From Salvelinus alpinus (lineage: Eukaryota; Chordata; Actinopteri; Salmoniformes; Salmonidae), in NCBI RefSeq assembly GCF_045679555.1, contig NC_092099.1:14398076-14462075 (forward strand): a DNA stretch of 64,000 nucleotides, in the 5' to 3' direction. The position numbers were made by a program, and so were the translations under genes. This document shows positions 19,601 through 25,600 of this stretch, piece by piece (the first letter of the stretch is position 1; every line of letters starts with the position of its first letter). Below the pieces are notes generated by a model. The model did not search any database. It was given only the letters and a program-made list of their open reading frames with translations, and had not been told where the DNA came from.

Positions 19601-22600
19601 TAGTTACAGTCAATTACGCTGTTTTCATTCATTACATTTTGAATTTCCACTGTGTACTCGACTCTCTAAAGATGAGCCTCACCTGTCCCTAGGGTCCAGC
19701 ACAATGGCTCTGGGATTGGTCACATTCTCACTGACCAAGACAGTCCTGTGGGTGCCGTCCAGTTTGGACACCTCAATGGTCTCCAGAACATAGTCAGTCC
19801 AGTATAGGTTCCTGCCCACCCAGTCCACTGCCAGGCTCTCTGTCACTGTCACTCCACTGTCAAAAACCTGTCAAATCAACACACATATGTTTAAGTTATT
19901 GGAGTTCATTTATTACCCTAGAGAATGTAGAAAACGTAGCATCTCTTTTGTGGGAAATGGAAGGGCATTTGGTACTCACCACAGCCCTGTCGCTGCCATT
20001 TTTGTGAGCGCTCCATATTCTGTCCTGGCTGGTGTCAGACCAGTACACACGGTCAGTCACTGAGTCAAAGTCCAGCGCCACAATGTTTCGTCCATCCCGG
20101 ACCAGCGAGCGGACCACATTGGGCTGAGTGGTTATGTCATCGGACACAATCTGATTTCGGCTGGCGACTAAAAGGAAAGCCTCGCGTGAACCTGTAAACA
20201 AAAAATACTCTCTTTTCACCGGTGCATTATAATTCAAACAAGACTTCTCATCAGCTGTAGAAAATTCTTCCTTAAACTACAAAACAAGATAAGTTGAGCT
20301 CCTCAGATATCTACAGCAGGGAATCAATGCAGCCTTGTTGGGAATAATGGCAGATTGAATTACAGGGCTTTTCAGCTGGTTATCTTTGAGGTAGATGGGC
20401 TCATGTCAGGCACACTGCTCATAAACAAGCCCTTTGTTGTTGATTATGTCCTAATTACCCGGAGAGAGAGTCAGTGAGTGACATATATGTTATTTGTCTT
20501 ATCTGGGGAAATCAGAGTAGAGTGGGGAGAGAATGAAGAAGAGAGAGAGTGCATCCGCCCGGTAGTCTGGTGCCAACACCGGCTCCCTTTAGACCATTCA
20601 TGTCCTGTCCTGTCCAGCAACTGGACAGTTTATCATGTCTGTGTGGGCCAATCAGATGCACTGTATATCCATCTCTGCCTGTCATCGAGGAGACTGGATT
20701 TAATCCACAGTGGGAGGATGTGTCTTATTTTGAAATTAGGCCAATTATGTTTAGAGGAAACATAACTGAGTATGTTGTGGACTAAATGGATTGGTCAAAT
20801 CTATATGATGGATTGGTATGAAAATGTACGTAAATCGTTTCTAAGAGCACAAAATGGTAATGCGGCAGATGCCAATTCAACCCCCCCCCCCCCCCCCCCC
20901 CGCATACACACATCCTCCTCCTCACCTGAGACCTTGCATGTGCGTTGGTCAGCCTCCAGAGTGTATCCGTCGGAGCAGTGACAGCGAAAGGAGCCTCTCT
21001 CGTTGAAGCAATGCTGGCTACACAGGCCAGGGGGGCTACACTCGTCTATGTCATCACACGTCTTCGAGTCGTTACTTAGCTGGTAGCCCATGGGACACGT
21101 GCACTGGGCCCCAAACGGCCCCTGGATACAACCGTGGGTGCAACCTGCGTTGTTGTCAGTGCAGCTCTCCTGGTCTAGGATGGTAAAAAGAGGAGAGTCA
21201 ATAACAGACGGTAAGAAAATGAAACACCTTGGTGACACTTAACAGGTAATGTGGATAAATGAACAAACTGAATGAAGGTACTACTGTAGCTAGCTATTCA
21301 ATTAATCACAGTGCTATAAATAGCGCGTTCTACCCTAGAAAATATTTTGGGAATTTCGTCAAAACACACCATTTGTACATTCTGAAACAGATTTTCTACA
21401 TATGTAACTACAGACAAGAATTTCCCTTTATCCTCCAATTGTGTTTTGCACCATTCTACCCATATTGAGATGGTTAGTGTGGTTGGCAGGTTTTGGGATG
21501 AATCAAAGCCTCACGCGTGAGGTTTTACCAATGATTGAGGTTGTTCCTACCTGGTAAGGGCTCGTCTGAAAGCAGTGAGGAAGGCAAGAAAGGAAAATCA
21601 TAGATCACTTTTAAGTTAATACAGACCAAATCAACACATGCATGATTTGAACACAAGATTCCACACATAACAAAAATTCCTCACAAACATTAACGCACTC
21701 AATTGGTTGTGACCAGAAACACGGTGCAAAATATGTCAAGATTTCAAGTGACCAGTGAAACTAGAAAATTACAAAGAGAAAATTTACAGAGAGTGCACTT
21801 CATTTTCGTAACATGACACTATTAGCATGCTGGACTAAAAGGCAGAGAGAGATGGTGACTTACTGCAGAGCGGGGACTCGTCTGCACCATTGGGGCAGTC
21901 AGGATTGTTGTCACACACCCTGCTGATGTTGACACACATGCTGTGGCCCGGGCACTGCCACTGCCAGCTAGGGCAGCGGAAAGGTGGTGTGGGGCAGTCT
22001 CTCTCGTCACTCATGTCCCTACAGTCGTTGTCGCCGTCGCAGAGCCACCGTTGGTACACACAGTTGCCGTTGTCACAGCGAAACAGGGTGGTGGGGCAGG
22101 TGCGGGGGGGACAGACGTGGTGCTCGTCTGAGCCGTCCTCACAGTCCGGGTGACCATCACACTCCCAGGTGGAGGGGATACAGCTGCCGTCTGACTGGCA
22201 CTGGAACTCACTCTCATGGTGGCACATCCCTGGGGGTCTGGTGGCTGGGCACAGCAGGAGAAGGCAAGGTCAGACAGTGTAGTGAAGTGTGGCTGAAGCT
22301 CAGGAGGAAGCCTCAACAGAACCTCGGAGATGATGTCACTTCACTGAGAGTAATGCTCAAACTGCTGTGCTCCAAGACCCGTTGGTTGATCAACTCTGTA
22401 TGTAGAAACTGATCCTTGTATTGTCTTCTTGTGACTCAAAACATTGAGGTGGTATACTTACAACAGCCATTGCATGTCTACTCTGTATCAAAACCCACTA
22501 CTTGTACATTCTAGAACACATGTGACTACAGACAAAAAAAAACATTTTATACAATTGTGTTTTGCAACATGCTAACCGTATTCAGAGGGTTAGTGTGGTT

Positions 22601-25600
22601 GGCAGGTTTTGGGATGAATCAAAGCTACACATGTGAGGTTTCACCAATGATTGAGGCTGTTCCTACCTGGTAAAGGCTCACGATCATCTGATAGCAGTGA
22701 AGAAGGCAAGAAAGGAGAATATATAAACTGATCATTTACATTTTCTTGTAACTTAAAAAAAAAAGAGGTTGAATACTTACGACAGCCAGACTCATCTGAG
22801 TGATCGCTACAGTCAAAGACCCCATCACAGCGGTAGTAGGAGTTGATACACTGATGTCCATTAGAACACTTGAACTCATAGAGAGTGCAGTTGTAAACTG
22901 AAAAAACAACAAAGGATGCCGTTTAGAACACGCAAAGTCATTGTGTGTACTGTTTAATACACATGGAATAAGATCAATGGGATAAGAGGCTAACGTACGC
23001 TTGTGTTTACAGTATATTCAATTGACTTGAAATTGTGTGACACTTGTTGTTGGCGCTGTCCAACTATGCAAGTTCCCAAATACAGTACAGTGCGAAAATA
23101 ATACAGAGTCACTCACTGCAGCCCTGTTCGTCAGCCCCATCCATACAGTCTCTGTCACCGTCACACACATAGCTGGGGCCTATACAGCGGTGGTCTGGGC
23201 ACTGGAACTGTTCCGGGTGGCATGTACCACTGAGGTCTACCAACACAGAGAGACCAATGGAGCTAACAGTTAAATGCAACACATCCTGACTGACAGTCAT
23301 TCTCAAAAAGACACTCAACAACAGAGGTATTACTCCTATAGTAAATGTTCGACAATAAAAGTGATCCTTGACTAGGAGACTCACTGCAGTTGGCCTCGTC
23401 CGAGCCGTCTCCACAGTCGTTGTCCGTGTCACACAGCCAGATGTGTGGGATACAGCGGTTGTTGGCACAGGTGAACTGGTTGGCCGCGCAGGTGCCAGGG
23501 GTCTGGGTGGGGCAGTCCCGCTCGTCACTGCTGTCAAAGCAGTCGTTGTGCCCGTCACAGTGCCATCCACTGGGCACACAGTGCTGGTTGGCACAGGTGA
23601 ACGCCCTGGGTGAGCAGGTGGTGTCTGAGAAAGAAAAGTAAGGATTAATGAAACATCATTTTTTGGCTACTTTTTAACACTGTAACAAGCCATTCTAAGT
23701 ATACTAAAGTATACAAAATATAAGTATAAGTATATTAAACATTATTACTAATGCCCCAATAAAGTGCCTTGAATGACAAACAGTTAGTATACTCCATTGA
23801 AACGTAATACAACGCATTACTATGAGCTCCGCCACAGTTGGCCTCATCACTGTTGTCATGGCAATCGTCAACGCCGTCGCATCTGTAGTTCTGAGGGACA
23901 CATTTCCCATTGGTGCAGGAGAAGGAATTGGAACCGCACTGCAGCGTGGGGGGCTCGTTGGAAGGGTCCTCTACACATGTCTGCTGGCTGGGCGCCAGCT
24001 TCATGCCATACGGACAGCCACACACCCTCTGGGAGTCCGGCACCGGGAAGCAGAAATGGCTGCAGTCTCCATTAGGGTTCGTATTCATATTGCAGAAGTT
24101 GGAACCTGAGAGGGGTTGCAAAGGATATCACGGAATGAATCCAGTGATGGCCACAGAGTTATCCTCCATAACATTAACACCGCAGCAGGGGAAACAATGA
24201 AAGAGTTTCTCACCGGTCTGGGAGTTGTAGTTGAAAGATTTGACGTGCATGATGTGGCTGATTCCCCTCCTGATGATGACCATCTCTCCCCCGTCAGTCT
24301 TGCGCACACGCACGATCCCACCCAGGCGCCAGTCAGTGAAATATGCATAACCTGGATAGGCCACGCAGGAATGCTCATGAAACTGAGACCCGGCGTTGGG
24401 AATACCAGGGCACAACCTATGACATTAGCTATTTTATCTCTTATCATCACTGAACTAATGTTTGAGATGACACGGTAATTGCTCTCTCTAATGATCATCA
24501 ATCAAGCTGGATGGACGAGTAGTAATGAAATTCTAACGATGAAAGCTTTTATACAGTAACAAGGTAGCTTTAATGCAACTGATGGAACAGTGTTGCATTC
24601 CATTCTTTGTGAATTTAAAGAGGAGAAAATTGAATCACCTCCAAAAATGGTGAGACCAAAAGGATGTGAGATCTGAGTGATGCGCTCCAGAGACAGCCTG
24701 TTCTGTCCATCAAAGGTGCTGTGCTCGATCTTATCAAAGAAGGCATCCACCCAGTACAGGCGCATGGAGCTGGGGGGAGACAGGACGAGTAGGACAGACA
24801 TTCTTAAACACTGTTGCACAAACATATTGTCAAGAGGAGGATTAGGGAAGATCAGTCTGATAAGAGGCTTAATGAGATCTTACAGATGTCGGATCTTAAT
24901 TTGATCACTCTTTTGTCGCTGAGAATTTTGCTGGACAGCAGGAAATGCAGATGAGCTTCGTGATTTACATAAATTCACTAAAAACCGCACTAACATACGG
25001 TTGGTTATATTAACAGTATTCCACTTTTCATGCAGCCTCACTTTGACCAGCTAATAGCTTACCACCGATTAAGCAATGCACAGAGTGTCACAATTTCTAA
25101 ACGTAAGTCAATCCTATGCATCTGATTTGTTATGAATGAAATTGCTATTTGTTTTCTTGACGGAGTACTACTGGAAGATGAAGAATGGCGTATTGTGAGG
25201 CCATTCCTTTGGTCCTGCTAGGCTCTGGGACCATTGGCTCACCTCCAGTCGATAGCCAGGCCGTTGGGCCAGCCAAGAGTAGTGTTCACAATTGACAGAG
25301 CATGTGACCCATCACACCAGGCCCTCATAATCTTCGCTGGACGGTACCAGTCGGTCCAGAAAATATACCTGCCAAATAAAACATACACATTAACCAACAC
25401 TCACATTTATATGGGAAAAGATCATAGTGTCTTTTCACCTCAACCGAAGTAGACTATGGCTTTAGGACCACTTCAAAATCTTTTATGAACTGAGAAATAT
25501 AGACAGTTTATTTCAGAGCTCCACAGGGCTTTTTCAGTTTAAGCCAAGTTCTTAGTGTTCACTACAATACCGGCCTTCATGCAGCACTAATCTAGGCTGT

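Follow-up and report, generated by a model that had tools for sequence, protein, structure and literature searches.

Two small exon-like units in the lrp2 gene of Salvelinus alpinus, here called mx1 and mx2, lie in duplicated intron sequence on either side of exon 25, and the best explanation that we found for them is a tandem duplication spanning exon 25, followed by loss of the extra exon, with the small units usable as cassette exons. We set the probability of this reading at about 0.62. The analysis was carried out on a single window, i.e., the whole stretch of 64,000 nt that was analysed (contig NC_092099.1, positions 14,398,076 to 14,462,075), and the features on which the argument depends are collected in Table 1.

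Table 1. Host exons, candidate microexons and duplicated pieces of the lrp2 region, in positions of the window (the slash marks a splice border).
Feature	Position	Strand	Content
exon 24, upstream host exon	22781..22897	-	117 nt, one LDLR-A repeat, phase 1 at both ends
mx1, candidate microexon	22667..22687	-	21 nt, between two LDLR-A repeats
exon 25, host exon	21864..22244	-	381 nt, three LDLR-A repeats; inside copy 2
mx2, candidate microexon	21551..21565	-	15 nt, between the last LDLR-A repeat and an EGF module
exon 26, downstream host exon	20926..21174	-	249 nt, two EGF-like modules
left arm of copy 1	22719..22788	-	last 8 nt of exon 24 and start of intron 24
block 1	22488..22720	-	mx1 with its acceptor tract and the next 179 nt of intron
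left arm of copy 2	22400..22469	-	relic comprising the end of exon 24, its donor (TGGCTGTT/gtaagt) and the beginning of the intron
block 2, right part of copy 2	21359..21598	-	acceptor tract, mx2 and downstream intron

The host exons are on the minus strand and encode LDLR-A and EGF modules; for their numbers, 24, 25 and 26, we assumed the numbering of a preliminary description of this DNA. When the protein without either unit (the skip form) was compared with the PDB sequences, four LRP2 sequences gave 1248-1272 bits and LRP4 gave 307, these being whole-sequence scores over several stretches each, and the best single stretch, ranked 1, was found against LRP2 with 406 bits. The host exons matched LRP2 best, and the host gene thus looks like LRP2/megalin. 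From exon 24 through mx1, exon 25 and mx2 to exon 26, the intervening introns measured, in order, 93, 422, 298 and 376 nt.

The sequences of mx1 (ATGATCGTGAGCCTTTACCAG) and mx2 (ACGAGCCCTTACCAG) share their borders, with CAG/ on the acceptor side and CCAG/gtagg on the donor side. When scored with splice-site matrices made of consensus values, the acceptors reached 4.9 for mx1 and 6.4 for mx2, and the donor 4.7 in each. All these values fell between the extremes seen in ten further introns of lrp2, whose acceptors scored 3.0 to 6.7 and donors 2.5 to 7.1 (introns obtained from 21 of 41 tblastn matches by automatic mapping, with minimum scores imposed). The constitutive donors preceding the units were weak, with 0.98 before mx1 (exon 24, GTC/gtaagt) and 2.46 before mx2. 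The difference in length between the units came down to a single 6-nt indel, all unit ends were in phase 1, and the four combinations of inclusion and skipping gave four open isoforms. Inclusion of mx1 would convert GC-P-TRPPG into GC-HDREPLPA-TRPPG, a gain of 7 residues, and inclusion of mx2 would convert LC-N-QESC into LC-NEPLPD-QESC, a gain of 5. In agreement with these results, the preliminary description had claimed two tiny units of 21 and 15 nt with good acceptors, CCAG/gtagg donors and phase 1 on both sides, a difference of six nucleotides that keeps both in frame, and a similar E-P-L-P linker from each. It had also claimed that skipping restores the known LRP2 junctions, and this was borne out to within one residue by the lengths in the PDB LRP2 chains, which we take to be mammalian. 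Residues 1-84 of the skip form aligned to 83 residues in each of the four, and with mx1 included, 91 residues aligned to the same 83; at the second junction, 41 residues stood against 41 without mx2, and 46 against the same 41 with it. Both inserts were absent from all four distinct full-length PDB LRP2 sequences, and a 31-residue query containing mx1 gave no match at E 1e-5.

Blocks 1 and 2 bracket exon 25, as had been proposed. Their alignment of 246 columns showed 79.7% identity (E 6e-59), which rose to 90% in a stretch of 128 nt free of gaps; this pair had the lowest E among the 7 same-strand repeat pairs obtained by self-comparison of window positions 1-39000 at E 1e-6. The extent proposed for the duplication needs correction: besides the blocks, the duplicated material includes the left arms of both copies, at 22719-22788 and 22400-22469, the latter being a third piece that had been missed. 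This piece, the relic that forms the left arm of copy 2, aligned with the left arm of copy 1 with a score of 64, and the maximum among 5000 first-order Markov sequences was 39 (0 of 5000 reached 64). Among 556 windows scored, the two holding the relic had a score of 64 and the next best had 49, and when the intron bases alone were considered, the relic reached 52 versus 31 for the next. As a BLAST match, it was weaker than the pair of blocks (E 2e-5 to 0.001). With one query, the two halves of copy 2 were both recovered, positions 1-67 falling in the relic and positions 66-298 in block 2, with an overlap of 2 nt. Copy 1 (22788-22488) is continuous and consists of arm, microexon and tail, and copy 2 (22469-21359) keeps the same order, with about 0.8 kb that includes exon 25 between arm and microexon. 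The motif GATC was common to the sequences near the join. Collectively, a repeat architecture of three pieces in one order is well supported. Further copies of the block were looked for in the window and none was convincing, the best being a palindrome within block 2 with E 0.004 and the others having E values of at least 0.19.

We infer the following order of events. A small cassette exon similar to mx2 would have been present ancestrally in the lrp2 intron between the exon with the last LDLR-A repeats of the cluster and the EGF exon. A head-to-tail duplication would then have started just inside the 3' end of exon 24 and reached into intron 25, and the duplicate of exon 25 would have been lost from copy 1 by deletion, or skipped in one two-jump template switch, thereby placing a second microexon, mx1, one exon upstream. 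From then on, mx1 and mx2 could each have been spliced in or out independently with the frame intact. Under duplication and loss, mx2 would occupy the older, ancestral place, and mx1 would be derived. Insertion of exon 25 into an already finished duplicate is unlikely, because the repeats that this exon encodes are also found in the LRP2 chains of the PDB.

The preliminary description had proposed an origin by copying of one intron segment, and this does not fit, because the relic is a third piece; a tandem duplication spanning exon 25, followed by loss, fits all three. On their own, blocks 1 and 2 would be compatible with dispersed copying of one segment between introns, and the relic would then have to come from an unrelated second event. 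The relic, however, begins 18 nt past the end of block 1 and supplies the stretch of copy 1 that is absent from block 2, and we consider such a pair of events quite improbable. Other derivations were tried and rejected. The acceptor tracts of the microexons and of exon 25 are alike (CTTGCCTT..CTGCT), but when the microexons were compared with the start of exon 25 as pieces of it, the scores of 22 and 27 were below the best background values of 30 and 33 (6336 overlapping windows). The donor of the relic could in principle close a third exon of 21 nt, but such an exon would start at 22482, with an acceptor score of -0.08, and whichever neighbour it was joined to, its reading frame would contain a stop. 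Four alternative AG starts for it scored -4.6 or less.

At least one of the two units is probably a real microexon that is used, and regulated alternative use of both is considerably less likely. To place the units against chance, candidates of 6-30 nt were counted in 28,502 nt of unmasked sequence in 40 stretches; the exon mask relied on a guide ending at about residue 2880 and on window positions below about 38950, and some lrp2 exons were possibly missed. With strict thresholds, set post hoc at the scores of mx1 and mx2 themselves, these two were the only candidates in the sense direction, and the antisense direction of the same 28,502 nt gave none. In 20 dinucleotide shuffles, the mean number of candidates was 0.15, and 0.10 when lengths were restricted to multiples of three. 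Looser thresholds (3/2.5) gave four sense candidates, of which the two with lengths that are multiples of three were again mx1 and mx2, and no antisense candidate.

The comparison between the copies gave a suggestive signal. In the core (acceptor tract, unit and 115 nt downstream), 17 of 161 columns differed, versus 27 of 131 in the outer arms (Fisher p 0.02; where the core ends and the arms begin was decided once the alignment had been seen). The corresponding indels, 2 in the core versus 6 in the arms, were not significantly different (p 0.15). Within mx1 and mx2 themselves, 2 of 15 columns differed in addition to the 6-nt indel, and the 115 nt of intron on the donor side had 12 mismatches and no indel. 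There was no conservation peak inside the microexons; it was spread across these 115 nt of downstream intron, and such a spread could stem from gene conversion or from a non-coding element common to both copies. The JC distance between the copies was 0.17 for all columns and 0.24 for the outer arms, values that carry no age calibration. When neutral change was simulated from an intact ancestor under 8 settings, both copies remained intact with a probability of 0.011 to 0.134, the latter in the loosest setting, the two-copy value being taken as the square of the one-copy rate. Constraint between the copies favours microexon use only moderately.

There is an appreciable chance, well short of even, that mx1 and mx2 are cryptic, unused splice-like units, and that it is by luck that AG, GT and a multiple-of-three length survive in both copies of the duplicated intron segment. 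The upper simulated value for neutral retention of both copies, given an intact ancestor, would allow this, as would the number of such candidates expected in these introns from the shuffles and the lack of the inserts in the four PDB LRP2 sequences. On the other hand, a rare chance origin would have to coincide with chance retention, and each microexon donor scores higher than that of the host exon preceding it. It is unlikely that the conserved item is instead a non-coding element downstream, such as a splicing enhancer or another regulatory stretch, with the small exons as by-products. The donor-side intron, free of indels, speaks for such an element, but the element by itself would not explain why splice signals this rare occur as a pair and in a frame that can be used; moreover, no Rfam family was found at gathering score in 20900-23000, a search that covers described RNA families only.

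The closest known systems are alike in part. Vertebrate Srrm4-type microexons are 3-30 nt long and in frame, with UGC and a pyrimidine-rich tract just upstream (PMC12626420). The lrp2 units are like them in size and frame. Within 40 nt upstream, TGC was found twice for each unit, but also three times before exon 25 and twice before the acceptor at 11496, and the motif does not discriminate. The RBFOX-type motif TGCATG was uninformative: it occurs 23 times on this strand of the window, and of these sites one, at 21642 and thus upstream of mx2, falls in 20926-22897. In ApoER2 (LRP8), human exon 6B, mouse exon 7B, is a cassette exon of 13 residues with a furin RXXR site (PMC7410921). It is, as the lrp2 units would be, a small cassette exon for the ectodomain of an LDLR-family receptor; in contrast, no RXXR was present in the translated stretch of any of the four lrp2 isoforms, and the lrp2 units are paired, whereas section 7 of that paper does not describe the ApoER2 exon as one of a duplicated pair. 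Tandem duplicated exon substitutions (mutually exclusive exons) are also homologous coding units from local duplication (PMC9741552), and the lrp2 blocks are 80% identical. Such substitutions swap one homologous region for another, whereas the lrp2 units flank a full exon at different domain junctions; the minimum of 7 residues that this paper uses for the homologous region is not reached by mx2, which adds 5. Being at separate junctions, the lrp2 units could act independently, and the frame permits both together. In zebrafish lrp2, exon 73 is reported to be alternatively included and to lack annotation in EST libraries (PMC6700241). It is also a cassette in a fish lrp2, but its place is close to the transmembrane segment, at the opposite end from mx1 and mx2; cassette events thus do occur in lrp2.

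In our literature search, no paper was found on lrp2/megalin microexons or on alternative splicing of lrp2a in salmon, and, by title and start of abstract, the present units were unreported among the matches listed. Relatives were also looked for in a viral contig collection, with no locus from 2 pattern matches, and in a prokaryotic genome contig collection, with one locus from 9 pattern matches; neither gave a fish sequence. The one locus, in a contig labelled as a Deltaproteobacteria MAG, showed LDLR-A-like repeats of 49% identity (L001, 840-1328) and could be animal contamination.

If used, the units would alter the spacing of receptor modules. With mx1 included, the LA-LA spacer would gain 7 residues and the spacing of ligand-binding repeats would change; with mx2 included, the LA-EGF spacer would gain 5 residues and the tether to the EGF pair would change. 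The sixth EGF-like module (E6) of LRP2 is described as lying exposed at pH 7.5, whereas at pH 5.2 it packs, buried, against a propeller and ligand-binding repeats (PMC13313491). Human C1400, which is changed in that work, corresponds by position to a cysteine at skip-form residue 218, which belongs to the second of the two EGF modules encoded by exon 26. The length of the tether before this pair is therefore a plausible control point, on which mx2 might act. We regard as doubtful the wider proposal that the duplicate ligand-binding exon was discarded and the duplicate microexon kept, so that one splicing code tunes both the LA-LA spacing and the LA-EGF tether at low pH. If the units are used, they would show how an exon-spanning duplication with later loss of the exon can carry a splicing-regulated linker to another domain junction, and the pair would offer a natural test of whether ligand choice or pH-driven release depends on spacer length in a ligand-binding cluster of LRP2.

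Other features were observed in the window. The lrp2 part contained a local direct repeat at 5293-5523 (158 columns, 87% identity, offset of 68 nt), and 21 consecutive C (read as G in the coding direction) occupied 20881-20901, in the intron that follows exon 26 and 24 nt from its start. Upstream of lrp2, on the opposite strand, a coiled-coil-like open frame at 48723-49217 (+) perhaps belongs to a ccdc89-like gene. Open frames at 52355-53270 and 54629-55693 (-) look, by eye, like pieces of Tc1/mariner-type transposases, and an open frame at 63403-63747 (+) resembled, also by eye, a piece of a non-LTR reverse transcriptase.
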